Part shown: one piece after another, positions 51-54,889 of the stretch
Numbering within the stretch: position 1 is the first letter of the stretch
Layout of the letters: each line of letters begins with the position of its first letter
Assembly: GCA_025345505.1 (NCBI GenBank)
Contig: JANVCC010000064.1
Location: 3,423,538-3,487,537, forward strand
From: Todiramphus chloris collaris
Lineage: Eukaryota; Chordata; Aves; Coraciiformes; Alcedinidae
Direction of reading: 5' to 3'
Length of the DNA: 64,000 nt
Made by a program: the position numbers and the translations under genes
Notes under the pieces: model-generated
Told to the model about the DNA's origin: nothing
The model's input: the letters and a program-made list of their open reading frames with translations, nothing else
The model's database searches: none

Positions 51-3000
51 GAAGCTGCGAGTGGTTGTTTTTTCTGCTTTTCTCCCTTTGTCTTAGTGCT
101 TTAAGTGCCATTAGCCTCTCTGTCTTCCAGGTCTGCCTGTCCCCAGTGGGGAGTGTGCTGCTGGGTTTTACTGCAAAGGTGGAGCAGCTCTCCCTAAGCC
201 AACAGATGGTGTGACTGGGAATATCTGTCCGGTGGGGACTTACTGCAGTAAGTATCCAGCATCGATCAGGACTAAAGAGTCCATGCCACAGAATAGCTGA
301 AATACTGAAAATTCCATGTTATATAATATCTGAAACTGATGGGTGATTTTGAGAGCATGGTGGCCAGGTTTCTAGGGTCTGACCAGGGTGTCTGAAGTCC
401 CAGGTTCTTCCCCTAGTTCTTCCCTGACCTCTTCTTTGAAAGTGGTGACATATTTGTCTCAGTGCCTAAACTTGTCTGTCTTTGGAATGTAATTGGCTTC
501 ATCTCTGTTTCCCTTGGTACAACGAAGCTAATAACGTCTGTCCTCTCCCATGCGAGCCTGTTGGATTTACGAGTGACAAACAAGACTTGATACCCTTTCC
601 ATGCTGCTCTGTGTTCATCCAAACCTTGGATGCGATCTCATGCGTTCTTGCATTGTTCATTTCTCTTTGTCTTTCTTCTGTTCTTGCAGCTGCAGCATCA
701 GCAGTACCCAAACTCTGCCCAGCTGGCACCTTTTCCAGCCTCCTAGGGAGGAGAACGCTTTCTGAGTGCCAGCCTTGCCCCTCTGGCTTCTACTGCGAGG
801 TACCTGGCCTCAGTGCCCCGACTGGAGAGTGCTGGGAAGGTGAGTCAAGAACAAACTGCACTGTGCTGCAGACTGACAAGAGTCTCTGGGGACGTGCTCA
901 AAGGAGCGTGTGTGGACTAGCAGGTGAGATTGAAATAGATCTCAGAGAGTCACTGTTTTAGAGTGGAAAAGCCATTCCCCTGCTGAATGATCCAACGAGG
1001 AGTCAGAAAGGTGCTGTAGACTGTACAGGCATCCAGAGAATAGGAGTTCAAATTCTCATTCAGTGTATCCCTCATACGAGAGATACCTGCTTATTATTGA
1101 CTCCTGAGCCTTCCTGGGGATGGGAGTTTAGAGACTTGCTGCCTGCCTCGGTGGTTTCCTTCCCTGATCTGGAGGAGAACAATTTCTGGCTCCATGTGAG
1201 AAGGCCATTCGAGCTTAAGGCAATTCAGATGTGAAAGGAGGGACAGCATCGTCTGCATATTCTGTGCAATGCAAGTGTTGGCAAAGGAAAACTGATGTTC
1301 AGTGGAAAAACTTTATTTGAAGGGTTTCAGTAACTGAAAGGAAACGGAGAGATGGATGCTGTGTCCCTAAGTGTTCTCCTGGGCCACCTGTAAGTTTTGT
1401 CCTGTGTTCTGGGAACCACCGCGTGGTAAATTTCCTTCTAAAGAGTGCAGCAAGTGGAGAGCTTCCGTGCGGATTTGTCCCAGTAGGAGTGTGATTCAGA
1501 TCAATAGTAATTTAAGGTCAGCAAGAGATGTATTTTTTCAGTGGCCAGCGAGGTACTTTGTACGCCTGGGAGAACCTGTTAGGAGTCTTCTCATGAGCAG
1601 TGCCTCGCTAGCTAGTATCTCACAGTGACTGATTCAGCTGTCTCGCCTCTGTCTTCACTGCAGGCTATTACTGTGATGGCCAGCAGGGGCCACTCACCGA
1701 TTTCACCCTTTACCCGTGCCCGCCAGGCTTTTACTGCCCACCAGGGACGAAAAGCAGCACACAGTACAGTTGCCCTGCAGGAACCTTTGGGCCAAGGCAA
1801 AAACTGAAAACGGTGAAGGAATGTCAAAGATGCCCACCAGGAAAATACTGTGAATTCTCTGGACTTGCTGCCCCAACGGGTATATTGCTGTTATGAGCTT
1901 ATTTGCTAGTGCTTGAGAGTCGTGTCAATGCCTGATGGTTAGAGCCAGGGTTCTAGGGTTCTGATCTCAGCCAAGGTGAGCCATCCCATTTTACTTGTCA
2001 AGTGAGGAACAGAAAGATTTTCTTTTTTTCAGCAAGAAGTGAGAGAGAGACTGCAGAAACCAGAACTGAGAAAATCCAGTGGGGAGCTTTCCGCTGTCAA
2101 ACCTGTCTGGCGTTCTTTTCAGAATGAGTTTTTCCACCCTGGTTCCCAAAGAACTAATCTCTTCTCTTAATTGACGTGCGTGTGATTAGGCTTAGCAGAG
2201 AAAGAGAGGGTGAAATGCGCAGCAATGATGGTTTTTTCGAGATTATTTTTTTCACATCAGTGCTGATGACTTTTCATTGCTCGTTATACTGCATAAAGAC
2301 AGACCTTAATTCAGCAAAGCACTTCGATAAAATTCTTAATGTTTCTGGCTTCGCTTAAGGATGTGTTGAATATGTGCCTAAAGAGAATGTGTGCTTAAGT
2401 ACTTTCCCAAACATGGAGGCAGGGCTCAGTCAGAGCTAAGTAAAGATCTTCCCTGTCCAGGAAGTGTCAGTCTGGCATCTGCCACCAATTCTACACTCTT
2501 AACAGTTAGAAGCAGCTCCTCTGCTTGATAACAATCGCGTCGCTAATTTGGAGTCTGGCAGTGGCTCTGCACGATGGCCCAGGGAATGACTGTGCTAAAG
2601 TCTGTGTTCTGAAATTTGCATCTCTGTGCCTATTATTGCAGTACGTTCATGTGTTTTGTATACATTGCTCTGTTTTGTAGGAGATTGTGCTGAGGGATTT
2701 TGGTGCAAAAGCGGCGCCCGAGTAAGAAATCCCCAAGATGGAGAATCGGGACTTCCTTGCCCTCCTGGCCATTACTGTCCTGAAGGTAAGGTGCTTCACT
2801 AGAGCCTAAGTTTTCTTCACTCAGAGAAAGCACGAAAGAGCATTTCCTCACTTGGTGCAATTCGCTTTGCCAGGTGCACCAGTTCCATTGCAGTGCCCTC
2901 CTGGCACATGGTCTGGCAGCGAAGGCAGGAGGAGCCTGCAGGAATGCCAGGCTTGCCCTGGGGGATATTACTGCAACAGCTCTGGGCAGAGGGCCCCCTC

Positions 3001-6000
3001 TGGACACTGCAGCCCAGGGTAGGGGAATAGCAAACACGTGTGTGTACTCTGTTTGAAGGAGAGGTGTTCTGTGAGGGATCTCCTCAAGCCTTCTGAAATA
3101 AAGAGAGTATGTTCCTGTTTCCGTGGCTGCAGGTACTACTGCATCACTAGGGCCCAGACTCCAACACCCACAGATGGCTTCTCAGGAGCTCCGTGTCCAC
3201 TCAGTCACTTCTGTCCTCTTGGATCCAGGAGTCCAGCGCCTTGCCCTCCTGGCTCCTACATGCCCCACACCCGTGGAGAGAAGTGCCACGCTTGCCCAGA
3301 GGGTGAATACTGTGCCTCTGGTGAGAAGCCACAGCCATGTCCCCAGGGTGAGTTAAGATCTCCTGAAGTGTCTGGTTTGTCTTTCATTTTCCAAAGACTG
3401 CTGATTCCGACCTGTTCTCTTTTTCCCAGGGTGTTTCTGTCCCAAGGGCACGGCCCTTCCAATGGCTTGTCCAGCAGGGTCCTATAACCCTTCAGAAAGG
3501 CAGGCCAGCTGCCTCCCCTGTCCTGAAGGGTAAGAGACAGTGAGCCTAGCACTGTATGAGTAAGGGACTATGGGAAACAGTTGCTTACCCAGTTTATCAT
3601 GGAGCAGCGTGCAGTGGGGAAATTAGGTGGGTTTTTTTTGCTACTAAAAGACATTTGTCTCTGAAAGGACACCGAGTAACCCTTGAGCTCTGTTTAGCAA
3701 TGCAGTATAGTTGATTCTGGAACCAGGCAAAGTCCTAAACCCAGGTACAGCTGCACTGGAAGGGAATTTAGATCAGAAGGCCATTCAGTGTGAGGAAGCC
3801 ATCAGCACCATCACCCTTTTTGTGTCTGAATAGATGGTTCCCTTGGCAACAGGCTGGCAGAGGCCTGTTGAAGGGGAAGATCATCTTGTATGTCACCTGA
3901 TGCTGAGTCTGGCTTTTCCTTGGGGGATTCATCTCCAATTACTGACTGGATTTGACCTTGATTAACTTTTACGAGTTGATGAATCGCAGCCTGGATATGT
4001 TATGACTCAAGTTAAGAAAATTACGTCTCTGTGGCTTTTGCAATTATGCCATCAAATTGGCACACGAGGAAACAAGTAAGAATGCAGTAATGTGCATAAG
4101 TAGGTCTGTTTTGTGGTCAGTGCAGCCCAGGGCAGCAGCTACATTAGGCTAGCTAGTCCCACCATTAAGTTCTTATTCAGGTTGGGTTTTTTTTCTTAAA
4201 TCTCTCTTTGGACCAGGTTCTTTTGCCCCAAAAATTCCTCTTCCTTTTTGGAGAATGAATGTTCAGCTGGCCACTACTGCCCTGCTGGTACTGCTTCTGC
4301 CACCCAGTTCCCATGTCCTAAGGGGACTTACAACCCACAGACAGGAAGCAGCCTCATGTCTCACTGCACCCCCTGTGACCCAGGTAAGCAGCAAACAAGC
4401 ATATCCTGGGATGGTGACAGGAGAACGTGTGAAAATGTGGTGTTGAGTGTTCTTGAGCCCCAGTGGTTCAGTGGATGCATTGCCTCAGTGAGTGGCCTGC
4501 TCTCTGAGGTGCCTTTCTGGTTTTTCTGCCCTGGTGATGGCACTGCCTTCGTTCTCAGGACACTACTGTGCCCGTGCGGGGCAGTCGCAGGTGACAGGGC
4601 CCTGCTTGGCCGGCTTCTACTGCAGCGGAGGCGTTTCTAGCCCGACGCCTACCGACGGTCTTCTGGGGAACACGTGCCCGAAGGGAACCTACTGTCCTGG
4701 GGGCTCTGCCTTTCCACAGCCGTGTCCTCCTGGTTATTACAGCAACTCAACTGGGAATACTGGGATTGAGGACTGTCTCCTGTGTGATGCAGGTACAATA
4801 CTGGAAGAAAAGATGAATGAAATTCTAGTCAGACACCTGAATTTCTAAGGCTCCTGAGAGACTTTATGGGTTTAGGGCAGGCAATCGTGGACGAGTGCTT
4901 TCTTGAAGAGAGATGTGAAGTAGATCATAGGGAGACTAAATCTGATAATTTTCCATGTAAAAGGACACTCACCGTGAGCTGTGAGCTTCTGCTCTGTCAG
5001 CAGCCCTTTCCACCCTCTCTAGATGCTTTCACACTTTGAGATGATACAAGGACTGCTCATGTTCAGGTGTGTAAGCTCTGTCCTTGCAGCTGTTCTCAGT
5101 GAAAGCATCTCCAGGAGAGTAGAGGCGGGTGACACCAAACGTGACACGTCAGTGATCATTTCCTCGCAACGTATTTGCTGTGGTCTCTTGTGTGACCATT
5201 CTCAGTGTGGCTGGTTTATGGTCCCTCTTGACTTCAGGGTATTTCTGCAATGGCAGCGGACTCGTGTCTCCGACTGGACTGTGTGAGGCCGGATTCTACT
5301 GCAGCGGAGGAACCGTTTCTCCTAAACCTCCCAGGGTAAGCTGTGCTCGTGGTGTAAATAGTGTGAAATGTTATATCCATGGAACCGAAGACCATAAGGT
5401 CACCTTAGTTCTCTTGCACTGGATTAAACTCTGTGTTAGGACTTTCTCTTCTGTATCAGGTACATTTGGTTTATTTATAGTGAAAGGGGCTAGAGATAGC
5501 AAAATACATCTGGCTTGCTTTCAGCTTCTACATCTAAAAGCTGACCAAAAATAGTTCTGTCTTTGCATATTGATGCTGCAAAGCAGAGCGGAATGCCACG
5601 ACATTAAAATTAGAGATGCTAGGAGTACATGAGTTTGATTAGAATACTGCATATGTCAGCCCCCCTCCTAGGCAAAATACAATAAGAATTTTTAAAGATG
5701 ATAACAAGACACTGATTTTATGCCACAGCTTTCTGCAAACTATGAATGAGTAAGAGGTGGTGTCATCTTCCCCATGGCCAGCCCAGCAAGATTTGTTACA
5801 GGAGGAATCCTGATCCCTTGTTTTGGAAAAGGATGGGTGTGCAGCCTTAAAGACTAAGGGACAAGGGCAGGGTTTCCTACTACATGTCTAATTCCCTCCA
5901 CCAGTAGAATCTGATGCAGATCTTTTTGCAAAGTCACCCCCTTGAATCTGTAGACTTGTAACTATGGTGTTTGTCTTCAAAGACAACAGTCAGTGGAGGA

Positions 6001-9000
6001 CCATGTCCCCCTGGACATTACTGCGTGGTGGGGAGCAGCCGAGCCCGGCCGTGCCCTGCAGGGACTTACAGCCCGTCCTGGAGTATGGCACAGTGTTTGG
6101 AGTGCCCTGAAGGCTTTTACTGCACCACTGCTTCCACAAACTACACCGATTGCCCCGCAGGTGGGTCTCATGGCACCTTTCTGCTCTTCCTAGAAAATTT
6201 TGTTTCAGGGACTGGCAGGTCCCCATACAGCTGAATGGAGTAGATTTGTCACTGGGCTGGGTTGCATGAGGCACAGATCTCTGCCACTGGACAGATCAGT
6301 GACCTTGGTCAAAATACTTAAGCTCTTTGGGGTTTAGTTCCTGCCTGGACATAGAAAAAGGTAAATGGCACAAACAGTTTTAACAGTAGACCGTCATCAC
6401 ACGCTTTGAGATCTTCCATTGAAAAACTACATGGTAGTGAGCTAATCCTTAGCCCTATCAGCTTCATTTTATGCAGCAAATAAAATGTAGCTATCACACA
6501 GCAGTGGTAAATTGCAGGGTGGGCCCAGTCCTCCTCAGAAAGAGAGGAAGAGAATGCTATGTGTGCAGGCTGGGGTTTCTTCCTAGGCTGTTACCAGCAT
6601 GTGTTAACCTTTATGAAATCAGACTTTTCTTTCCTAGGTCACTATTGCCCCAGGAATACAGAATTCGCCACACAATATCCTTGTCCTCCTGGAACCTACA
6701 GTGAATCTTTAAATATCTGGGATGCTTCCAAGTGCCAGCTGTGTCCTCCTGGAAGGGTCTGTTCCAAGCCAGGCCTAGCAAGACCAGATGGACCGTGCTT
6801 GCCTGGATGGTTTTGTCCTCCTGGATCCACATCAAGCAAACCAATGTTTCCTGGAAATGACTCTGGTACGAAGGGGAACAGTAAAGCGTGGTGATGATCA
6901 TTGTTGAGGAGGTGCTCTTACAGAGTCACCTAAAGGATTCGGTCAGCTTCCAGGTGGCTTACTTTCCTTTTTTAGTTTCCTTAATTTAGTGCTGTAGTTC
7001 TCTTCTTCCTGAGCTCTTTAGATAAGATAGAGTGCTTGCAATTCTTACGTTTCAACTCCCTGGAGTTAATGTACTACCAGAAGTGTAAGAGTGAATGTAG
7101 AGGCTCAAATTTTGCTGTGTGGCAGCCACTGCCACTGGCAGCCTGCTGCGTTAGGCTGCAGGAGGAATATCTGCCCGGGCATTTGAAAGCCCATCTGCTG
7201 GCTGGGATCCTGTGTTAAGCTCACTGATGCCTTAACTCCTGCTGTGTAGTGTGGAGGAGACCGTGCCTGCCCACTCCTGCCACTCCACTTGTCCAGTGAA
7301 ATAGCTGGGACGAAGAAATCAAGATTTATACTTAAATATATACGTGAAGTTGAAAAATGCTGAATGCTGATTAACCTTGTATGTATGTAGACGTGTATTA
7401 TAGATATTTGTTTGTATGTATGTACATGTAGAGGTGTGTACATGTATAACTAGAATAAATAAGTGGTCTCTGCCTGTCTCTTGGGGACACCCTGCTTGGG
7501 TCCCTGAGCAGTGCCTGTGTCTGAGACAGCCCACCTCTTTCTCTAGGCAGTGAGGGTTACCACAGGAAGCCTTGCCCCAGTGGCCATTACTGCCCTCCCC
7601 TGGCATCTGCCCCTCTGCCCTGTCCCCCGGGGACCCACGGGAGCAGCAGCTTCGCAGAGCACATAGAGGATTGCCAGGCCTGTCCTGCTGGCACCTTCAA
7701 TCACCTTCCTGCTCAGGCTGCCTGCTTCCCCTGCGGCAGCTCTTCTTCCTCTCAGCCTGGTGAGTTGCTGCGCAGTGATTGACTGGCTCCTTATCCTCTG
7801 CAGTGGTTTAATGTACAAGTTGGTGGAGTGCTTGTCAGAATGTGGCTGCTGTGAATGTTCAGCTGGGCCCTTCTGCATCTCCTTAAATGGACACTTCAGG
7901 AAACGGTCTGATGATTGTGTTGGTGGAGCAAAAGGCAGCCTGGTTCCAGCTGGCTTTCCTGTTGGTTCAGCTCTGCTGTGCCACTGGGGTAGCAGGCTCC
8001 AGGAGCGTGCTCAGATGAGCAGTGTGATTTGTCAGAGTGTTCTACACAGGAACTGCTCCTTTCTGGGGACCACAGTTTTTGCAAACTATATTCCTTACCC
8101 TGATTACCACTCTAATTCCAACCTCTTCATCAAGGTGCTGCCAGCTGTACTTGCCATGGGCTGAACCGGGCTTTCCAGCCGTCGGATGCCTCCTGTATCT
8201 GCCGAGCAGGTTACATTTACTATGATGAGAGAGGCAAGAAAGTCCCTGACAGCAACAGCGATCAAGACTGCCAGCCTCAGGTAAAATTTAGCTTCAGAAC
8301 AAAGTTGTTGAGTGGCATTCAGGAGAGGGAGAGTAATGCAGTGCTTTAGGCCTCGTGCGCTGTCCAAGTTCAGTTCTCTGGCCTGCTGTGGACACAAGCA
8401 AGTCCTTTAGCTGTTGTGTTTGAGAGCCCTGGCCATTCCCTGAAGGATAATGGCACTTGCCTGCTTTACTGGAATATTCTGAGGCTAAATTTATAGAAGA
8501 TGGAGGCAAAGGATGCTTCCATTTCAGGGCAGTGGGGAGCAGTGCAGTATCTCAGATGACAGATGCAGGAGTTTAAGCCTCTGTGTTGTTACGGTGGAAT
8601 TCTTCATCAGACCTGCCTGAAGAACTTGGATGGGAAGTGAAATTTCTTCCATGCTTTCCAAGTTACCTTTTAATGGCCCTGGTTGGATGACCTTCACATT
8701 GAATGTCACCAGTGTAGGTGGGGAAGGAAGAGAATTTTAGGGATGCTGAATCTTGAAGTGCTAAGAGCTTGTCTGGTTTCACGTCGCGGATGAGTGTTGT
8801 TCCTCCAGGTGGACGAGCTGTGTGCTCCCGGAGAGGTCCGGCTAGCATCGACTCGCCAGTGCGTTCCTCCCGAGCGCTACGACTGCTCTGCTTCTTGTGG
8901 GCCTGCAGGTGGAGAGATGAGTGCAGAGCTGGGCATGTAAGTCTCAGCCCAGCCTTTCAGTAGCAAGCACTTCACAATTGGTTCTGTCTGGCTGAGTTCC

Positions 9001-12000
9001 TGATCCCATGAGGTCATTCCAGGGTAGGGCTGTGGGAGGTGTTGTTGAGAAACTTGCCATTGCTGGAGTTCCCTTCTGTGGAGATGCTGGTCTTCAGTCT
9101 GCATTTGTTGGCCTCGTTCCTCTGCCTGAAGAGTGTGCCTGAGTTTTCAACATCACCTCGTGCTTTTGTGTGCTTGGGTGGAGATGTCAGAATGAACACT
9201 GTGTGACAGGGTGAGGGTGGACAGAGCTCACGTTTTCTGAGGTAGACTTTTCCACATACCTCAGGCTGAGCCCTCCTGAAGTGGATGATCACTCTGTTAG
9301 ATTTAGACCAGAACTGAAGAAATAAATCCTCATCCCCCCACCTTAATGCTGGCTAAAGCATTGAAGCTAGTTCTTGTCATGTGATACTGCCTTTTTCTCC
9401 GTGGGAATGAACTTTATTTTGCAAAATCTCCTGTCACGGATGCACAGAAATCCAGTGTGTTAAATATACTTTGTTCCTTTCAACTGCAGAGCAGAACTTG
9501 TAAGCTGTTAAGTTGATCTTTCTGACACACCAAGGGAGAGTGATGTATCACATTTTGGCCTGTCACATTCACTGAATGGCACAGACAGTGCAGGATGAGA
9601 TGGACTATGATTCTCCATGGCCATAGGCCCAGTCTTAGTGCAGACTCTAGGATATTAGGGCTAACCTGACCGTTGGTGTGTGGGAGCTGTTTGCTCAGGG
9701 ATCATAACTGATCAAAACCTTTTGTCTGCTTTGCAGATGTCACTGCAAGCAGTATGTTTCTGCTGAGGAGCTCTGTGACCAGCTCTGTTTGCTGAGAGCC
9801 CCGCTCATCTCCTTGGGTTTCGGCGTCAATAGAGAGCTGCTTCTGAGGACGAACGAAGGAGACGTGAGGGTAAGTATGGACTGGGGAATGCTTCCTCAGA
9901 GTGCAAGTCTGGAGAGAGCCCTTGGAGGTTACAGCAAGGTGAAGGGACTCCTGGGGGCTGAGGTTGCAGAGGGGGGTGAAGCTGTGAGCAGGGAGGGAAG
10001 ACTCCGTGTGTCTCGTTACCCAGAGTACTGACCAGGCAGCAGGTCAGTGCATTTCTGAGAAATGACAGTCCCTGAGTGGCAGGGAAAAACCCTCCCTGGA
10101 GCAGTCTGGTACAGCTCAAGGTGAGGTTGGTCACAGGCTAGAGTTCAAGTCCAGGGTCGATTGTATCAGTGATTAGTGTTCCCCTTGGCTTTTAACAGGA
10201 AGTGACAAACGTCCTGGGCCCAGATGAACATGTGCAGAAAAGCCAGCGGGTGCACTTGGTTCTGTTTAGTCCCAGTGGAGTGCTAGGTTTCATTGTCTCC
10301 AGCGTGGATGTTCTGGATATATTTCTCACAGGTAAGACTTGAGAGTGAGCCTGACTAAGCTGTTCGTTTCCTTGCAAGTTGGCATAGTAAGTGGACAGCA
10401 AGTTGACACAGAGGGAATTTATTGTCAGGTGCTCCAAACTGTTTGCAGGGTAAGATGAGATGTCATTTTGTCTCGGAGTAAAAGATGGGGACCTGCACTG
10501 GCTGCATGGTTAGCTCCCTGAGACTGGCTCAAACAAAGACTGTAGGATGATTTTTAGCCTTCCAAGGAACTACAACAAACTCCATTTCGAGGCAAATCTG
10601 TTGACAAGCGTGTGCAGGTTCCTGATCCCAGTTGCTCCTCATTTCTCTGGTAGTGTGACTGAGAGCAGAATTTGGCCTTGTGAGATGTAATTGCCCACTG
10701 ATATAAATAAAAAGTCCTTCATTGCCAAGAATCAGGTGTCTTCACGTGCTGCTCATTTTGCAGAATTCATTCTGTTCTGTGCTGTTGCCTGTGACAGGAG
10801 TTTTTTCATCAGATCAGTTGCTGCAGAAAGGTCGTCGAGCCCAAAGGACTTCCACCAAAGATATCCAAGCCTTGCCCCTCATTCCTAACCCAGTAGTATG
10901 TTTGGAAGCAGGAGACACGATCCTTTTCCAGCTTAGCATCAATTCCCAGGGTGAGTGCTGTAGGGTCTGTGTGCAGGAACATGTGTCCAGACCCATTCAG
11001 AGCAATGGCTCCACATTTGGTCATGCTGGATGTATGAGCACATTCCTTCTCCTCCCTGTTTCTCTTGCCTTCAGGGGATTCCAGAACTTTAGTCTGTGAC
11101 TTTCCTGGTACTTTTTTTCACTTTCTGACTGGATGTCTGCTAGTAATTACCTAAGATAAATGAGTGTGGCCCTATAAAAGAAATGCAATTACACAGTTCT
11201 TGGCCAGACCAGTGTCAGCTTTCCTAACTGAAGAGGGTCAGAGTTACTGACACTGCTGAACTGTTCCCAGACCGTGCATCCAGCCACTACCCTGTTTATC
11301 AGAAGCAGCATCTGTACAACAGCAACCCAGGCTGGGATTTTGGACCCTTCCGAAGGCTAGACCATCTCATTCAGGAGACTCAGCTCAACATCTCCTGGTA
11401 AGATCTGCTCTCACTAATAGTGCATGTATTATGGGCAGGACTTAGACAGTCTCACAGAATCAGTAGGTCCTTGGCAGTGCTCAGTCTGTGCAATCCCCAA
11501 AGTCTGGTGTGTTCAAGTCCCCATATTTAACCATCATCACAGCTGGAGGCTAAAGGAAGCTTGGATCAATTAGTGCCTTCCTTACTTCTCCCTTTTAGGT
11601 TTGCCCATGTCTTTCTGGAGTCTGGGACGTATGTTTTCAGGGATAGGACCATTCAGGAGCACTTTCTGATTGTGACTGTGAATGAAGCAAACGTGGGCTG
11701 TGACCCCAGAGATGTGTCCTTCCAGCCCTCTTCTCTGTTCCAGCTGGCCAGACACGGGGTTTTGCAGAAACGAGATCTGAACTTGGCTCCTAACTGGGCC
11801 GCTATCACAGGTACAGCCAAAACACTCCGGTGTCTGTCTGGAACCTTGATGCTTATGTATTTAAAGAAGCATTTTCTTTGGAAATAACCATCAAACCTCT
11901 GGCTTTGTCAGCTTTAGTCCCTTTCTCCTGTGGACCTTCCCTTCCCAAAGTTCACTGCTCTCTAGCCAAGAACCTGCCTGTGTGGAAACTCAAGGAGGGA

Positions 12001-15000
12001 GAGAGTGAAGGAGCAATTGTGTTTCTTCCCACACCTTGCTTGAAGAGTTCAAGTAATTGAGGGCTTTGTTTTCTTTGGCTTGAAAGCAGCACCAGAGCGC
12101 TTCTGTAATAAACTAAACTGAAATTAAATGCATCATTTAAGAGTTTGCTGAAGGCTGAACACAAGGGCATTAAGGTCTTTCCTCAAAGCCATATCTCTTA
12201 AGTGCTGTGCACATTCCAGTCCCTTGTCCCTCGATGAGAGGACAGCTAAAGCAGTAGAAATGAATGTGTGGCTTGCAGATGTGATCCTTGGTTCTGTCAC
12301 CTTCAGCTACCACTGCTGAAAACCTTTTGCCTCCTTGCTTATGTTCACCAGATGGGCAAGCAGAGAAGCAGAAGCCTCTGTAATGAATGTGGAAGTTGCT
12401 ACATGTTGGGTTCGTGTGGGAAGGAGAGTGTTTGGGAAGTGTAAAAGGGCAGCTGTGCTATTGGTACTGTTTCCTGCGTTTCTCACTTCCTGCCATCCCT
12501 GTTGGCTTCCCCAGCAGTCCTCTTTGTTCTGGCCTTCCTCATTGTGGTGCTGACAACCTTGGCTATAGTGTTCCAGCCTTCTGTCCCCATCACTAGCCCC
12601 ATGAAGAGCTGGAAGCCACGATGGAGGAGCCTGGGGGAGCCGCACATCCCGCCAGAGTACATCCTCCTTAAGGACAGGTAAAGCCCCTTTGCCTGGCAGC
12701 TCTCAGCAGCCCAGGCCTTGACAGTACAAAAGCTTGTCCTGTTGCAATTGCTGACTCCCACAGTCCCCAGTGCTGGCCTTCTGCCAGCTTTTACAGCATG
12801 CTGTGTTTCTGGGTGCACACAGAGTTTCTTGGTATTACCCAGCAGTATTCCAGCTCTATAATGGCTCTGTTGTGCTAGTATTACAGAGTGTTCTTGCCTG
12901 TGTTAGTAGTACAGAGTATTATTGCCTGAATTACCTGGCCTGGGCTTCCCCTGCGTGTTCTGACTTCAAAACCTAGACAAGAAACGTATCCTGCTTGGAC
13001 TAGGCTGGTGATACTACAGGATCTGTGTTTACTGAGGAGGAGTTCCTCTTCACTCTCTTCTGTCATTCCCTCCAGCCTTCAGTTCTATCAGACGGTTGGT
13101 CCTCACGGTTCTGGAGAAGATGCTGGCCTTGGAGAGAAAGGAGCTGCGCATAACGCAGGTGAAGTGCTGGGCCCACGCTGACTTCTTCTGACTTAACTCC
13201 CCGTTCTGTTGCCTTCTGCCAGCTCTCCAGTTTCGATACCTGCTCAAGCCAGAAACCTGTGCACACACGTGAGGCCCCGCAGGCTCTTGGGCTGCGCTGC
13301 GCTCGCCCGTTTGCGCACATTCCCGCGCACGCTCGCCACACACGCTTCCATCCCAGGTTCCTTTGATCTGTGCAGCTGGGGAGTGTAACTCCCTGTCACT
13401 GGAACGGGCTAGTGTTTTCTTCCTGAGGATTTAGGAGGGGAAGTGGCCAGCACTGAAAAGCCCTTTAAAACAGTAACAGGTTCAAACGACTGGTGAAGAA
13501 AATTACGGTCTTTAAAAATCTTTCCCTGGCTTCTCCTGTTGGTCAGTGTTCAGTGAAGGCACGTGACTTATGGGCCTTGTTTGCCTTCTGGGGATGACCT
13601 CATCTTGGGAATTTCAGGATGTTCTGCAGGGTACAGCAAACTCAGAGCCCAGCAGATGGCACCATCTGGTGATGCTGAGAACAGCTTACAGAGAAGTAGC
13701 ACCCTGGCAGTTGATGGGACAGGTTAGGAGTTGATAGTAACGCTCTGTCATCCTCCCCCTCCCTAAGGAACCAGACCTTTTCTTACATCTTCTGCCTCAT
13801 CCATTTTCCTTCTTCACAGTGCACAAAATTCCATTGCCTCCTGTGAACAGGCAGCGACCCTTCTGGGAAATAAATTAGAGCAGACTTGTGGCCAGTGGTT
13901 AAGTATGAGACCTACCTTGTTTTTCAGAGGAGCATTTTGTGCTGAGGGTTCTGGAGGATTTCAGCATTCGCACCGTGTACGATAAGCTGGAAGATCAGAA
14001 CCTGCACCTGGCATCGCAGCTGGCGAAGCACAGGATGGATGTGTTGGTGTTTTACAATGGAATCAGACAGCAGATTCAAAGTCTCATGGTCAGTGTAAAG
14101 AAATAGTTCAGGGAAGGGCCTTTTGACCTGTGACATTTACAAGATAGATGATTCCTCTGAAGTGATAGTTTACTGGGGGATACATCTTAAGCCTTTTGGT
14201 ACCTTATTTTGCCATAAAATAAGCTACCCTGATCTGTTCTGAGAGGAGAGGCAGAATGAGGAATGTGTGAGTTGTGAGTCTTTGGGAGTACAACGCTGCT
14301 GCTTTCTGTAAGCAGGACACGGTGCAAGCACTGGACTCTGAAGGCCTGAAGGTCTTTGCCAGGCAAACGATTTCTGGGCATAAACCTGCAGAGAGCAGCT
14401 GGGCAGCAGCGGGCATCGAACCATGTGGTGAGCACTGTGGCACCAGCTTCCAAGCAGGTGAGAGAACCAGAGTGCAGAGCAAGAAAGAAGCAGAATATCA
14501 AGGTAGCATCAGTGGACTGGTTTAAAAAAACAGGTGTGGTTCATACACATGAGAAGAGATCCACAGGATTGTGGCTGCCAGTGTTGTTGGAGTTCAGTAA
14601 GAGCTGACAGCCTGTCTTTGTGTGAGCTGGATGAGAAGACAGGTCTGTCGGCTTAGGAATGGGTAAGCACAGAGTTATTTGGAAATGTTACAGCGTGAGG
14701 CATCTTGGGAGTGATCTCAGGGAATTTCTAAAGAAAGAATCCTGCTCTTGATTTTTCTCTGGAGATAATTGCAGTTCTTGATGTGGTACTGTACAAGTCC
14801 ATTTAAATTGCTTTTCAGGTTCAGTCAGTGCTCCATGGAAGGAGGCAACAGAGTTAATGAAAGCTCTGGAAATGCTGCTTGGGAAAGCTCTGCACGAGAA
14901 CGTAGCTGTGAAACAAGAGATGGAGCAGAAGGTCGAGGGACAAGATGCAGTGTGCATTGTACCCCCGCTGGACAGCCTGGCCAGTGAAAGCAACTCAGAA

Positions 15001-16753
15001 GTAGTGGAAGGGCAGGTGAGTTTTGGGTGGCTGTTGCCAGGCAACCTCTCACTTTTCTGACAGTTTTCCCACTTGCCTGTTTCTTTAACTCTTGGGCCCT
15101 TTTTATCCCCCAGGATCATGAACTGCCTCAGCAACGTGAACTCTTGAGTAGGAAAGATGCTTTTTTCAGCTTCTCTGGACACAGAGAACATGGTAAGGGC
15201 AGTGACTTAGCTGCGGGTGTCGTGTGCTTTTCAGAGATCACAGTAGAAGGCCTTCAGTGAGGGTGTATGAGTTTGCTAACAGAGCAGATGTATAGTTCCT
15301 TTTTCCCATTTATGCCATTTCTAATTTCATGTAATCTTTTTTTTTGCTGAGATTGAATGACTGGAATTTCTTCAGATCAGGAAAGCCCTGTCTCTCTCCT
15401 CTTTGCCTTTGTAACGGGGAAGTTAAGGAGCTTTTGTCCCCACAGACCCTTAGCACCTCTATTTTAAGCAGGTGCGTACAGGGAAGAGACTCAGTGTCAT
15501 TATACTAATTAAATGCTAGTATGGGTAGGTCAGGAAAAATCAGGAACCATCACTTCTGTGATCCTCACAGCCCGTGGGTGGGCATTCTCTCTGCTCGGTA
15601 CAGTATTTCCTTATGGCAGCAGTCATTTGGCCATGAAGAGACTCTTCTTTTAGACTCCAAAGTGTCTCCCTGTTTTCTGCAGCTTCTGATCTCCACTTGG
15701 CTTACCTGACTGAGTTGGAGGTGGAGGGCCTGATAGCACCTTCCCCCCTTGCCAAGACTCTGTGTGAAATCAAGCAAAGTTTAGTGAATCTGCAGCAACC
15801 TTCAGACCTTGTTAATCCAGGTAACAAATCTTAGTCTATATTGCAGTTTTTGTTGCCCTGTAAGAGGATAAGATAGAAGATTACAGACTGGGGGGAGAGA
15901 AGATGTCTCTCATTCTTGGTGCCTTGGTAAAACACACACACAGACGTCTGCTGTTGAGCTGCAGGTCATTAGAAAGAAGTCACCAGAAGATCAATAAGCA
16001 GACCAAAGTGCTTGTCTAATTCACATGTGTAGACATGTTTCCTACTTTCTCTCAGCAGGTGCTGAAACAGAGGGGTTTTGTTTTTTAGGAATTCATTTGT
16101 CAGAGCTTTTCTGTTCATCACAAAAGGTTTCTGGGGAAAATGTAATAAAGCCAAGATCTGTGATCTTAGGGAGCAATTTACCAGCAAGAGAATAAAGCGC
16201 CTGGTTCTTTTCTTGTGTACTGGTTTATAGCAGTAAATAAACAGAGTTAAAATAAGCAGGATGTCTTCTGAACTGAACGTGATGCTTAGAGTTTGAAATT
16301 ACTACTGGTGTGGTTTTGGTGTAATTATGGGTGGATCAGATTCAGATACAGTGCACTTGGCAAGGGCCTGGACACGCTGTCAGTGTGCTCCGTGCAGCTT
16401 GCCGCGGGCTCTAGAGTCACTGCAGCAGGGTGTAATGCTGCCAGGAGATCCCGTTCCAGTTTTTTTTTCCCCATTGGACTGGACTGCTGTGGTGGGGCCA
16501 TAGCAGTCCCTTGATGCTGTCCACTGAACCTGCACTCTGCTTTTGTTTTGAATTTCTGTAACAGACAGCAAACAGCAAACAAGCGTGGGGAGCTCAGCCC
16601 TCTTCTGAGCTGCTGGATTCTTGCGCCACAAAGAGGGATGAAGCTCTGCTGCTGGAAATAAAGAGGAGCTGCATGGCTCAGAGGATTGAAGAGACAGAAG
16701 CAGAAGTATTTCATCTTCTGCAGAGTATAATAGCTACCAGCTCATTTCCTTGA
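1..16753 (+). CDS. Large cysteine-rich type I membrane protein with GCC2/GCC3 repeats (5'-partial)
   Basis: The gene enters from the left edge, so its start and signal peptide are not seen. I joined 29 exons by GT-AG sites and frame: 2-50, 131-247, 690-839, 1664-1879, 2681-2785, 2874-3018, 3133-3347, 3430-3529, 4217-4383, 4559-4792, 5238-5335, 5983-6160, 6638-6865, 7547-7759, 8135-8280, 8809-8936, 9737-9869, 10199-10331, 10798-10950, 11271-11397, 11599-11810, 12515-12677, 13076-13158, 13928-14088, 14316-14457, 14819-15015, 15114-15192, 15683-15820, 16569-16753. All phases agree, giving about 1,464 residues. The order is cysteine modules, a second Cys-rich block, a beta-rich juxtamembrane region, one membrane helix and a cytoplasmic tail. 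The repeats resemble Pfam GCC2_GCC3/ephrin-receptor-like modules. A surface receptor or adhesion role is inference; I do not recognise a named orthologue. Confidence 0.86.
1925..2016 (-). repeat. Possible decayed MIR-type SINE in an intron
   Basis: CCCATTTTACTTGTCAAGTG at 1985-2004 followed by GAGGAACAGAAAG resembles the MIR core (CCCATTTTACAGATGAGGAAACTGAGG), and TGGTTAGAGCCAGGGTTC nearby resembles its other end. The match is weak. Confidence 0.3.
6275..6370 (+). repeat. Decayed MIR-type SINE in an intron
   Basis: CAGTGACCTTGGTCAAAATA then CTTAAGCTCTTTGGGGTTTA and GTTCCTGCCTGGACATAGAA follow the MIR 3' half (GTGACCTTGGGCAAGTCACT, TAACCTCTCTGTGCCTCAG, TTTCCTCATCTGTAAAATGG) in order. The alignment was done by eye. 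Confidence 0.6.
7375..7446 (+). repeat. Degenerate TATG/TGTA-rich simple sequence
   Basis: TGTATGTATGTAG and TTTGTATGTATGTACATGTA in an intron; an old, interrupted tetranucleotide repeat. Confidence 0.6.
8135..9869 (+). other. Second cysteine-rich block after the repeats (exons 15-17)
   Basis: The exons at 8135-8280, 8809-8936 and 9737-9869 leave the GCC pattern. They carry [10 protein letters not shown], then [16 protein letters not shown], which looks like an EGF-type C-x-C turn followed by an acidic, aromatic strand. After that come [14 protein letters not shown] and [17 protein letters not shown]. The phases (1 to 0, 0 to 2, 2 to 0) differ from the phase-1 repeat exons, which suggests a separate domain of different origin. 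No exact family is recognised. Confidence 0.75.
8340..8495 (+). repeat. Decayed MIR-type SINE in an intron
   Basis: AAGCAAGTCCTTTAGCTG, then CCATTCCCTGAAGGATAATG, then TTTACTGGAATATTCTGAGG track successive parts of the MIR consensus (CAAGTCACTTAACCTCT, TTCCTCATCTGTAAAATGGG, GGTTGTTGTGAGGATTAAAT). Divergence is high, as expected of an old amniote element. Confidence 0.5.
10199..11810 (+). other. Juxtamembrane beta-rich, cupredoxin-like region (exons 18-21)
   Basis: Exons 10199-10331, 10798-10950, 11271-11397 and 11599-11810 encode alternating hydrophobic strands: [17 protein letters not shown], then [15 protein letters not shown], then [15 protein letters not shown] and [16 protein letters not shown] 'GDT' strand followed by an 'H-x-F...G-x-Y-x-F' strand and a final 'V-x-V' strand recalls the Greek-key layout of cupredoxins. 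I do not see a complete type 1 copper site. The fold call is inference from pattern; that these are exons is well supported by splice sites and frame. Confidence 0.7.
12515..12677 (+). other. Transmembrane exon of the cysteine-rich protein
   Basis: This exon encodes the only clear membrane segment seen, [19 protein letters not shown], followed by a basic stretch (KSWKPRWR) as expected for the cytoplasmic side of a type I protein. The acceptor reads CAGCAG, so splicing can use 12515 or 12518; the choice adds or removes one alanine in front of the helix and keeps the frame. The donor at 12678 is in phase 2. Confidence 0.85.
12871..12926 (+). repeat. 28-bp tandem duplication, two imperfect copies
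   Basis: Bases 12871-12898 and 12899-12926 both read TGTG(C/T)TAGTA..ACAGAGT..T..TTGCC, with about five differences. It lies in the intron after the transmembrane exon. Confidence 0.75.
13076..15820 (+). other. Cytoplasmic tail exons (23-28)
   Basis: Exons 13076-13158, 13928-14088, 14316-14457, 14819-15015, 15114-15192 and 15683-15820 encode a cysteine-poor, charged, mostly helical tail. It includes [34 protein letters not shown] and [15 protein letters not shown], with leucines spaced as in amphipathic or coiled-coil helices. No kinase, death or other known signalling domain is visible. The donor after 14088 is GTCAGT, weaker than the rest, but the frame continues cleanly into 14316. A scaffolding role is speculation. 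Confidence 0.75.
16569..16753 (+). other. Probable terminal coding exon with coiled-coil tail
   Basis: Joined in phase 1 to the exon ending at 15820, this gives [19 protein letters not shown] and [14 protein letters not shown], a clear amphipathic helix, and stops at TGA 16751-16753. An alternative acceptor four bases upstream (exon from 16565) shifts the frame and stops at 16606-16608 after about 14 residues. The helical character of the longer reading makes it the better model, but the first AG would normally be favoured. Confidence 0.6.
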
Positions 16754-17692
16754 GGAGCCTTTTCCTTGGCAGTGGCTGAAGGTGGATTATGGGAGAGCAT
16801 GTCTGTGTCTGTGGACAGAGCTGCGGTGCCTGACGTAACAATAGATATGCATTCAGTTAGATACGTACTTGCTCAAATATGTAATGAATAACCCATACTC
16901 CTGTTTGCTTAACCTGGCTGAAATACTTTCCAGTTTGCCTTGGATTATCAATAATGTGTAGGCCTGAGAAGGAAGCTGAGGTTCTCGACATTGTTGGTTT
17001 TCTAGTATTTGTTGTTGGGTCAGTACAACAGAAAACCTGTGATGCTACAGGTGGCAGAAGAGCCCCTGCTTATCAGCACATTCTGTGTAGCCTTTCTGTT
17101 CTCTCCTACAAAGGATATTTTTCTAGTGTAGTTTAGAGCCATACTTCTAAGCCTTGCCCGGTGTCTCTGTGTTGCCTGTGCATGTTTTCAGTATCCTCAC
17201 GTTGATCTCAGTATCTGCTGGCAGAGACCTTGAAGGTCTCTAGAGTTCTCTGAGCAAAGAATACAATTAAATTACTGTCTGTAGTGGGGACTGCATGAAT
17301 CAGTGTAGCTGCTAGTGCCCAGTGTGCTGGGAGCCTGATCTTTAAACTCAAAATGTCCCTTCTCACAGTCTTACTCTTTTGGCCTGTCTGTACAGTGCCA
17401 AGAGAGCCTGGCTGTAAAGTGGGCTTTGCCTCTGTGGAACAGGAGCAGGATCAGAACATCTGCTCCATCTCCCTGCACAGTACTCCTTAGCTCCTCGTGA
17501 AGTACAGCAACTTAAAAGTTTAGGCTATCAGCAGATATGTTTATAACAGTGTTACCTGGAGGTGAGCCTCTTCAGTGATTGCCATCTCTAATATCCACAG
17601 GGAGACGTGGTGCCCAGACAGGTGATAAAGTTAGCTCTGTGACTTGTGGTTCCAGGTTATGTTTGTTAAAGGAAGGGTGGAAGGCAGCAGTA

Positions 17693-17698
17693 AATAAA
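17693..17698 (+). terminator. Candidate polyadenylation signal AATAAA
   Basis: AATAAA lies about 940 bases after the stop at 16753 and could end the 3' UTR of the shorter transcript. Similar hexamers occur by chance in AT-rich DNA, and another lies near 17989. Confidence 0.3.
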
Positions 17699-17763
17699 AC
17701 TTGACAAATTTTTTCATTGTAACTGTTTTCCAGTGAAAACATTTTGTTGTTGTTGCTTTAGAT

Positions 17764-17782
17764 AAAAAAAAAAAAAAAAAAA
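17764..17782 (+). repeat. Poly(A) tract of 19 bases
   Basis: An uninterrupted run of A, preceded by TTGTTGTTGTTG-like sequence. No retrocopy body is recognisable in front of it, so I treat it as a simple repeat. Confidence 0.8.
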
Positions 17783-19783
17783 GATAGGTGTATGAAACTG
17801 TGCTGGAAGTTTTCTGTTTCCCCCACTGTGGTTTTCTTACCATTTCAGTTATAAGTAAACGTTTTTGAGTTTCAGAATTGTTTGGCTATTCCCCACCCCC
17901 CAAACCCAAAGAATATCAATGAACAGACCAGAGTTTCACACAGTTTCTTTTCATGCTCTGTTAATAGATCCCTGGAAAGGAAAGCACAAATAAAAAAGAG
18001 TGGTGCAACCATTGCTTTTCTTCTAATTCTGAAGTATTTACTGTTGATAGCTCTTTTTCTAGTGGTCTGTGGAATCTTCTGGGTGTCCAGTGCTGTCTGG
18101 AGTAGCTGTGAAGTCCCTTCACATTCGGGAGGATGCCATTCCCTGAGACTGCCGATGAGAGGGATCAGTGCAGGGTCACTTTTTTTGGTATTTGGAGAAG
18201 GGCCCCAGGGCTGTTGTTTTTTCATCGGTTGCTTTGACTTGTGCCTCTCCACAGAAAATGCAAAGGCCCCTTTCAGCATTCAGTGTAAAGTTCAGCTTCT
18301 CTTGGAGAGCATCGAACTCTGCTGTGTCTGTGAGAAGGAAGGGATGGTTGAGTACCCTGAAAAGGAACCTCTTTCGTTTTTGGCACTCTGTGGCTCTGAG
18401 TTCTGAAATGTGCTGGGTGGTTTCTGCTGATCACGTGTTTTGGTGTGAAATTTTCCTCAAGCCTTCCAGTATCTTAACAAAGCCAGGTGATGTTCCTGAA
18501 GGTGTTTGTTGCAGTTAACTGAGGCTGCCCTGGGCTGTGTTCACTGTCTGGTCAGTCCTTGCCCCTTAGACGTGCACAGCTCGATACAGTGCTCTTCAGT
18601 TCTGTAAGAAGAAAAGGTCCAATGAAAATGTCCATCTCAAGAAAATACCCCATGTGGGTTTCATTACTGTGCCAACATGATGAAATGTGCTAACGATCCA
18701 GATCTGCTGGCAGATTCTTTGCAGATTTTCACACTCAGTCCATGAACACAGTCACGTTAACCAACCTACCAAGTTGCCGCTGATGAACTAACTAACGACG
18801 GTCCCTTGAGTTCTTCTGGATCACAGAAAGTGCAGTGTATTACGAGCCAGCTTATCCCACAGCCAGAGAGGTTTGTGCCAAGTTGGACAGCCCAGTCTTT
18901 GCCTTGACAAAAAGTGTACACATCGATGTAACTTGGCTACTGACCACTGGGATCAGAGGCAGACAGTTATTTTGAGAATGGTCGTGAGTCACGGTACTCT
19001 ACTGAAGTGCAGCCAGCCTTTGGGCTGTGTCTCAGATGTGGAGTACCTTTGCATCGCTGAGACATGCCTTGAGTTTAATTGCTGTAGCTCTTGGTAGCTT
19101 CCTGCCCTTGCACCCTGACGTAGGCTTCTCTGTGTTGCAGGTGAAATTGAATTGGCAGATGAGAACAGCCAGGTGAAGAATTTGCTCCAGAACCAGGACT
19201 CCACTACACATCTCAGCTCCTGAGAGAGCGTTTTCTGTACTACTCAAAGTTGCACGTGCATAAATTTACAATTCCCTGTTTTGGAGATGCTTTTGCTTTT
19301 GGTTGAGGCTAAAGAAATAGTCCTACACAGGTTGAAGTTGAAAGTTGCAGAGTATTTTTGTTCTGAGTTCCTAGCTTGAGCCTCTGAGCATGCGTTGCTC
19401 CACTCAGAGATGATAGGATCTACTCATGTTGAACACTTGCTGAGGACAGAGCTAGGACACCAGAAATTGGACACTGAAAATAAGGGTGCTTTTGAAAATC
19501 GTCTAGTGGAAGTCAGGATTGCCTCTGTGTAGGACAGAGATTTTCTGGTAGTCCCAGTTCTACCTTCAGGAAATGTTCTTTTGAAAGCTTCTGCTTTTAA
19601 TACTGTGCTTTTATCCCTCACAGAACACGGAGGTCCCAAGAAGCTGTTTTTACACCGCTGCTGGAAGACCCCAGCATTGTCACTCCAGCGTTCCTGGGTA
19701 GGTAGCCTGAAGTAGATGTTTCTGTAATCGTTTCTCAAACATGAGAGGAGAGAATATCATATCAGTCATGCTCCTAGGGGAGG

Positions 19784-32520: not shown

Positions 32521-51918
<19,398 letters not shown>

Positions 51919-52000: not shown

Positions 52001-54889
52001 AATGAAGGGGCTCAGACCAGTTCTGGCTGTTGTGCAAAAGCTGACAGAGGTTGTAGTTCCCTCTCTACTGGCAAGCAGATGTTAGCTGGAATCCTGCTTG
52101 CCCTTCGGCATCCTTCAGGCAGGACAAGTTGGTGGCCCAAAGCCTGTGGAGAAGGAGTGCTGTCTGCTAGTGCTTTATAAATCGGCATCTTGTACTGCCA
52201 CTCCACCCCTCCCCTTCCAGGTCCAGCCCATCTTCTGTTTCACCTATAGTAGGTGGAAAAATACCACAGTAATGGGCATGTGGGTTTCAGGTCAGATAGT
52301 TTCTAATTATTCCTTTGTAGTGTTTGCGCACAGCGAGGGAACTGGTGCATTATTCATCTTGCTAGAAGCAAAGAGTTTCCTTCGGAGACTTTCCAGCACC
52401 AGACTCCCTGTGGGATTTCCAACTGTCGTGGCCACATACAGTGTGGTTAAGGAAGTCTGTGCACATTTTGTCTTGCCTGTTTACATGATGTTCTGTTTGT
52501 CTCCCTAAGGTCCCTGAAAGTCAGATCCCTGGCCTGTGTAGGTACTGACAGGGATTTAGTGGAGTGGTGCTCCTTCAAGCCCCTTAGCTTAGACTTCTAA
52601 TTTCTTGCATTGTGTCTGTCTTTTTAACCTTCATGCTTAGCTGAAAAAAGCACTTCCTGGTGCATTTTCAGCAAGAGCACTTATCTGAACAGCTTCTTTA
52701 AGTAGTTTGTCTTATAGCAATTACCAGCTTCCATACAGGAGTGATAATGAGGTTTATGATACTTGTGATACCTGGTGTATCTCATCACTTAGAAGTAGTT
52801 AACTTCCTCTTCACCTCTGAAATGTGACTGAAGGAAAACTGAGTCAAATCTGGTGAAAGATCTTCTGTACTTGAACATTATTTGGGGGAAAATGTCTGTC
52901 ATCTGTCTGACAGAACTAGTCTTGCTGAAGAGCATAGCATTTCAGCAGTCAAGTCTTTTACATTATATAATTCATTATCTTCAAATTGCATCATTTGAGA
53001 TGCCGAGAGGTACCACAGTCACTAGAAATGATGACTCAAAGCATGTTAATAGAAATAACTAATGCTGACCTCTTCAAGCCATATGTATAAGCTCTTGGTG
53101 TAGGGAAGACAACCAAGAAACATCCTTTACTACTTCAACAGGAGCGTGAATAAATATGTATTCAAATCATGGACAGGTTCCCAGCGATTCAAGTACCATA
53201 CCTCCTTAAGTGACACTTACATTAAAAAGCCAAGCTGTTTCCACTTCTCAGTTTATGTGTATTGGTCTTTTTCCGTGGCATTCTTTAATCTTAGAATGTT
53301 ACGAAAGATGCAGAAGTGTATCTGGAAAGGTTTCACGTTCATTTTCTGCTGTTTGTTCTTTTGAGAACTAGATTGTGTCCTGGGGCTTGAATATAAACCT
53401 TTTCTTATGTATGGAAGTATTGGAGATTTCACAATGTGTGCCATATGCAAGAGCAGTAACGTATTGACTTCATCCAGGGAGCCTGCCTGTGTCACGTGTT
53501 ACCTGGCACGGAGATTGTCCTCTCTGCTGCTGGGAAAGGCACGAGAGCAAGTCAGTCAAGAGTGCAGTGAGCGAGTGTCTTGGGCATCCAACGAGACTGC
53601 TGAGCCTGGAAGTGGGAGGGTACGTGATAGAAAACATGGACTTGGAAATAGGAAAAAGCCTTCCAGGAATGCAGTTGGGTTGTCTGTCGGATCTGCTGGT
53701 GAAGACAGTGGGATGCAAAACGTGAAAACAGTCTTGTTCATTTAGGGGTTTTGACTGGGAGCTCGCATTTCCAGTCCGGTGTCGAGGCATTGCTCATGGA
53801 TGGAAAATAAGGATGTCTGTTACTACATCCTGCTGTTCAGATTTGTAAAAACAACTACCCTGTACTTTTTAGTAATGGTTTGTGATTTAGAATGTTATCT
53901 GGGTCATTTGGACAGTTTTTGTATTTGTCTTCTATAAATCGTGACTAATTTTGCCCGGGGACAAGTGTTAGTAAGGCAGATCAGCAGAGTGTTTGGCAAC
54001 AAGGTGCCGCGTACATCCTGGTCTGCAGGCACTGCTGGTGCATCTGTCGTCGTCTTTGTTGTGTAGCAGATGAATTAAACTGGGAAAGCCCTATAGACAG
54101 TGCCGTGGTTTCATATTTACAGAGGGTTGAGTTGAGTTTGCTGCTGACAAACAAACAATATTGAGCTCTCGAGTTCAAAGTGCAGAATCGATGGTTAAAA
54201 AGTTCTGTCCGCTGAAGGAATTGTTCTCCTGTAGGTTACAAAGGAAAAATGAGAAGAGTTAACCAAATGTCTTGTTCACCATGAACCAACTCGATTACGT
54301 GACTGGGCAGCGTAATACCCTACTGCTGGGAGGAGTTACCCTCTTGACAGTAGTCACTTGCTGCTGACAACCTGGTGTTTTGTCGGCCCTGCTGAAGAGT
54401 TACCGAGAAACAGAGCCCACAGGAGAAGCCAGCCTGCAGTTCTGGACAAGAGCTTGTACACAACCAAATCCTGCCAGAGAAGCCCTCGTGTCTCGGTTTG
54501 GCAAGACACGGCTTGTGTAGAGAAGCGTACGCTTGGGTCTGTGCCAGGGAGATGTAATTGTCACGTGTGTTTCTAGGGTGTCTCAACATTCATAGCTGAG
54601 CCCTCTTTAGAAGGTAAAATGAATTAATATTGTTCTGATTTCTAAACACCAGTCTAGAAAAACAATGCACCCCTTCTGAATGATTGTGTGTCTCGCAGTT
54701 CAGAGTTCAGACGTGTTTAGATCCTGTTCTGTGTTCCTGTGTGCAAGTCCTGTACCAGGACAGCCGGGAGAATGCTTGGCTGTGGTTTAACACACAGACC
54801 ACATTTCTAACCTTTACTTACTGATTCCTGTGCTCAGCCTCTCAGACGGGCTCAGGTCGTGAAGCAAAGGCTGCCTTGTGAAGTGAGGA

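Follow-up and report, generated by a model that had tools for sequence, protein, structure and literature searches.

The gene at the start of the window (the whole 64,000-nucleotide stretch analyzed here, positions 3423538-3487537 of contig C45 in the assembly) is real, open in frame and larger than first described. The explanation that we favor, at somewhat better than even confidence, is that an intact-looking gene of ~56 coding exons and ~36 kb encodes a type I single-pass surface protein of ~2844 residues, a long disulfide-rod receptor or adhesion protein that would be an unusual variant of the Ephrin_rec_like proteins with one close relative. We favor it because the frame is open and consistent in phase, because Ephrin_rec_like repeats and a single strong helix are present, and because a paralogue carries the same membrane-proximal blocks.

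The window holds the 3′ half of the gene

The exons of the window part were chosen by reading the sequence together with a candidate exon list. Twenty-eight exons with GT-AG borders, lying between 131 and 16753 on the forward strand, join in a single frame of 1447 residues followed by a stop, with AG at 28 of 28 acceptors, GT at 27 of 27 donors and agreeing phases at every junction. When exons 15-28 are taken alone, the gene frame has 1 stop, versus 32 and 29 in the other two forward frames. The sequence-only reading had joined 29 exons in one frame over this interval; the joining stands, on account of the one open frame, the GT-AG borders and the matched phases, whereas the count is 28 and the interval takes in only the 3′ half of the gene, the array extending upstream of it. 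The parts of the gene in the window are as follows.

131..7759, forward strand: 3′ half of the C-P-x-G cysteine array, exons 1-13 (131-247, 690-839, 1664-1879, 2681-2785, 2874-3018, 3133-3347, 3430-3529, 4217-4383, 4559-4792, 5238-5335, 5983-6160, 6638-6865, 7547-7759); from the joined frame, splice sites and Pfam Ephrin_rec_like
8135..9869, forward strand: second Cys block, exons 14-16 (8135-8280, 8809-8936, 9737-9869); from the joined frame, with a counterpart in the paralogue
10199..11810, forward strand: juxtamembrane region with two motifs of 17 and 14 residues, exons 17-20 (10199-10331, 10798-10950, 11271-11397, 11599-11810); from the joined frame, with the second half common to the paralogue
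12515..12677, forward strand: predicted transmembrane helix (20 residues) and start of the cytoplasmic tail, exon 21; top hydropathy of the model
13076..16753, forward strand: predicted cytoplasmic tail, exons 22-28 (13076-13158, 13928-14088, 14316-14457, 14819-15015, 15114-15192, 15683-15820, 16569-16753), with the stop at 16751-16753; from the joined frame

The domain order proposed earlier, with a putatively beta-rich juxtamembrane region and a putatively helical tail, was recovered. About 35 C-P-x-G turns had been claimed, and the window part, which has 97 cysteines, contains 33 CP.G turns, or 37 with CA.G included; the second Cys-rich block lies in exons 14-16, the low-cysteine juxtamembrane region in exons 17-20 and the single strong hydrophobic helix in exon 21, with the cytoplasmic tail after it.

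The modeled gene extends about 19.5 kb upstream of the window

We searched the genome assembly to which the window belongs (1.17 Gb, 889 contigs) and found that cysteine-module reading frames reach to about −18.3 kb upstream of window base 1. Working back from exon 131-247, we modeled 28 further coding exons with a home-made chaining script that rewards coding and splice signals, the start being forced at a first exon chosen by eye.

−19455 to −19398 (about 19.5 kb upstream), forward strand: proposed first coding exon, signal-peptide-like MANALNWLLFFYSLRSFLR; chosen by eye

The full model comprises 56 exons and 2844 residues with 96 CP.G turns; 240 cysteines precede the helix, and the tail of 363 residues has 6. 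Its 55 introns are divided among phase 1 (30), phase 0 (15) and phase 2 (10). Across the joined frame of 2844 codons the only stop is the final one, whereas the remaining two forward frames have 67 and 99, a difference that is not independent evidence for the upstream exons, since the chain avoids stops by construction.

Codon weights were then trained on window exons 1-15 and the script was run without the forced start over the 19.3 kb that precede the window; it returned a chain with a score of 623, consisting of 27 exons and 1376 residues with 63 CP.G turns. Nine control strands (the reverse complement, plus both strands of four other stretches, three of which overlap and hold ATP12A) scored 25.5 to 73.0 with no CP.G turn, and 20 first-order Markov sequences scored at most 49.3, with one CP.G turn in total. 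As the weights came from the same gene, what this test establishes is that coding sequence of the same kind goes on upstream, not that each border is correct. Some upstream splice scores and borders are weak. The first exon makes a poor signal peptide (its core, LNWLLFFYSL, averages 1.43 over 10 residues), with a hydropathy of no more than 0.69 in its best 19-residue segment, so that the gene may in fact start elsewhere. The proposed start is thus the weakest part of the model, and our confidence in the favored explanation is lowered for that reason.

The cysteine array is an unusual run of Ephrin_rec_like modules

Ephrin_rec_like (PF07699) was the sole Pfam family to exceed its cut-off (23.1 bits, whole-protein score), and it did so in both halves of the model. 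The window part matched it in 11 stretches (E 2.2e-11, 43.8 bits), with one other Pfam entry, NCD3G, at E 9.7 when matches up to E 10 were admitted; in the upstream part it was the only family at E≤1 (E 4.1e-18, 65.3 bits, 9 stretches). In a whole-genome scan with PF07699, the window gene was absent among the 20 places listed, from which it follows that its single exons match the family weakly. As a separate observation, two contigs of ~54.9 kb carry Ephrin_rec_like matches at near-identical places and with equal scores (C851:26746 and C852:26743), and these are probably duplicate or haplotype contigs.

Known Ephrin_rec_like repeat proteins include SCUBE, SVEP1 and ELAPOR. The window gene has this repeat in common with them but differs in its very long array, its many C-x5-C units and its own membrane-proximal block, and Pfam gave no EGF, CUB, sushi or pentraxin domain in it. 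With Eph receptors it shares the class of cysteine-rich module and a weak fold likeness to EphB2, whereas ephrin-binding, fn3, kinase and SAM domains were absent from the model by Pfam (E≤10 for the window part, E≤1 for the upstream part). Its modules are also weakly like those of the TNF receptor superfamily in predicted fold, but there was no TNFR_c6 match at those same thresholds and no death domain, and the window protein is far longer. The domain is described as being of ancient eukaryotic origin and unknown function and as occurring in complement and adhesion proteins (PMC6993872), and it is noted in choanoflagellate glutamate receptors (PMC12716839).

Among the 225 cysteines of the array, the commonest distances from one cysteine to the next are 6 (C-x5-C, 72 times), 3 (C-x2-C, 35 times) and 12 (26 times). 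A PDB sequence search with the array piece from exons 3-6 gave no match at E≤1. We then predicted the structure of exon 3 with AlphaFold, using eight other window exons as the alignment (nine single-exon stretches in all), and obtained a mean pLDDT of 67.3 and a pTM of 0.50. Foldseek matched this model to 125 PDB entries, and all 50 of those listed were TNF receptors, calcium-sensing or sweet receptors (the cysteine-rich domains of class C GPCRs) or EphB2; none of these listed matches reached E≤0.001, the best being E 0.15.

A genome search for the array type, made with a hand-altered query and scoring only the best candidates, placed 23 of 24 matches at E≤0.1 within the window gene itself (3 of the 23 run into a stop, as happens at exon ends), while the other, on C9, has two stops. 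As judged by this search, arrays of this type occur in the genome only in this gene. An NCBIfam search found no family, a result of little weight given that its models are bacterial and archaeal. Relatives were also sought in viral and prokaryote contigs, where 42 and 126 pattern matches, respectively, yielded 0 that were confirmed.

Helix, membrane-proximal region, and tail

By 19-residue hydropathy, the exon 21 helix exceeds every other segment of the model (3.14). A second, lesser peak of up to 1.94, in segments starting at residues 2272-2285, falls in the juxtamembrane region, and we read it as a buried strand. From these hydropathy means, with 0.69 for the first exon, a type I single-pass topology is a candidate reading. 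The gene had been called receptor-like, and that topology agrees with the single strong hydrophobic helix, the long stretch rich in cysteines and the tail; the signal peptide is weak, and the ideas of a "system" and of signaling are conjectural.

Neither Pfam nor the PDB sequences held anything usable for the second Cys block, the juxtamembrane region or the tail; with the 726 C-terminal residues as the query, the best PDB sequence match was at E 0.81. A PDB profile search with an alignment of the juxtamembrane region gave a best match at E 0.18, which we judged to be due to chance. The juxtamembrane region may resemble a cupredoxin-like fold. When the tail was compared with its own genome, six of the seven matches at E≤10 were its own exons and the remaining one had E 3.17.

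A paralogue lies on the same contig

Querying the genome with the C-terminal part of the protein gave two weak but colinear matches (E 1.4 and 2.7) that located a paralogue.

C45:5349241 onward: paralogue, 1.9 Mb downstream of the window gene on the same contig

It is known from a partial exon set. Its parts follow one another as in the window gene: five CP.G turns, the second Cys block (with one further CPxG turn inside it), LYNTNPEFDWG, PGTYV, KKRDLLLKPDWTAIT and the helix. In pairwise BLASTP the two proteins aligned at E 2e-27 over the Cys part (83/246 identical), where composition helps, and at E 1e-12 over the juxtamembrane and helix part (37/139 identical). A reciprocal genome search from the paralogue was weak, recovering the window exon at E 0.63, behind a C8 match with E 0.015. 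The C8 match (C8:31382924) was considered as a third paralogue and was judged to be a chance hit, having two internal stops and lacking most of the cysteines. On the strength of the shared nonrepeat region (E 1e-12), the window gene and the paralogue qualify as a predicted two-gene family.

The second Cys block, the juxtamembrane motifs and the helix are thus common to both genes, while the paralogue differs in its short array, in an Ephrin_rec_like score below the cut-off (20.7 of 23.1 bits) and in its tail, which carries DPxTG-like repeats such as LDPVTGIEVPVL and GLVPITIGARAVSPITGEIGPVIGAQ. Pieces of the paralogue also matched TNFR_c6 at E 8.7. The part of its tail that was searched matched nothing in Pfam (E≤10) or in the PDB (E≤1), and a comparison with its own genome returned its own exons and three matches at E above 4. 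Over C45:5358584-5361950 (loci L026-L027), this tail consists of repeats ~16-18 residues long in which a D/N-P-x-T-G core and V-P-I stretches recur.

Proposed architecture and alternative explanations

In the model that we propose, the array of ~2100 residues would fold as a disulfide-braced rod presenting a binding surface at a distance from the membrane, the helix would be coupled to this rod by the second Cys block and the juxtamembrane domain, and a nonenzymatic tail would dock adaptors or the cytoskeleton. From such an architecture, the most likely function would be that of an adhesion or tethering receptor at a specialized surface; we make no claim of signaling. Because the two genes agree in neck and helix, whereas the paralogue's array is short and its tail different, the comparison suggests that the neck is the conserved working part of the family and that reach and inner partner vary.

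Much of this is compatible with a plainer account, which we think likely, in which the gene is an ordinary vertebrate gene, already annotated as an "uncharacterized LOC" but unstudied, with an unremarkable role in matrix or adhesion. Open-frame genes of this kind are usually picked up by automatic annotation; the frame is open, and the window gene is likely to be annotated in public databases. Among the open-access literature matches listed, we found no description or functional study of such a gene; this absence, weak as evidence, fits the plainer account too. The same negative result is consistent with the earlier description of the gene as undescribed and without a named match, against which the repeat proved to be a known module. 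What sets the gene apart is the membrane-proximal part without a match and the long array; the repeat module itself is known, and its description as an old eukaryotic domain also present in complement and adhesion proteins (PMC6993872) speaks for the plainer account.

Three further readings were weighed. We consider it unlikely that the protein is a ciliary surface receptor under RFX/FOXJ1 control: two FOX-like cores lie 15 and 425 bases before the proposed ATG (of 19 such cores in 104 kb), but X-box-like sites are frequent when up to 2 mismatches are allowed (503 in 104 kb), the interval from −21 to −19 kb has none with 0 or 1 mismatch, and the X-box scan gave no signal above background for a ciliary promoter. 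That the model fuses two genes, one for a secreted protein with the Cys array and one for a small membrane protein, seems quite unlikely. Support for the model as a whole consists of splice phase and the open frame, and the paralogue shows that a short-array version exists, which would suit a fusion; yet exons 13 to 21 continue in phase with no stop, and the paralogue keeps the order of Cys modules, second block, juxtamembrane segment and helix. Decay into a pseudogene would account for the weak splice scores but is very improbable given the lone final stop, evidence that carries independent weight only outside the upstream chain, which was built stop-free.

Returning to the surface protein that we favor, a bolder form of the argument, which we offer tentatively and regard as doubtful, is that the two genes represent an unnamed vertebrate surface-receptor family with a membrane-proximal domain lacking any Pfam or PDB sequence match. 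The ectodomain of one member would be an exceptionally long series of cysteine modules and the tail of the other would be built of repeats, and the family would have been kept here and be missing from well-studied mammals, where we know of no such family. If this is true, its new membrane-proximal domain would make the family a well-defined object for ligand searches, for mapping of expression and for knockouts. To our knowledge, few vertebrate surface proteins of very large size lack a functional description.

Neighboring and regulatory sequences

The gene had been placed next to ATP12A, and this neighbor was confirmed on the opposite strand, with two joined exons giving potassium-transporting ATPase alpha chain 2 as their best PDB match (E 7.6e-56).

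33291..49971, reverse strand: ATP12A, candidate exons; two exons joined, PDB match
17693..17994, forward strand: candidate polyadenylation signals AATAAA at 17693 and 17989; motif only

Further AATAAA motifs occur at 17266, 19784 and 19824. No CpG island marks the proposed 5′ end (the CpG ratio is 0.19-0.57 from −22 to −18 kb); restricted expression would fit this but is not proved by it. Searches of the window found 0 tRNAs and 0 Rfam families. At 53418-53619, on the forward strand, the window contains a candidate exon with a CxxC-rich frame (MCAICKSS...PACVTCYL). A perfect X-box-like palindrome, GTTGCCAGGCAAC, lies at 15033-15045 in the intron after exon 25; the 104 kb scanned contain one other exact site.
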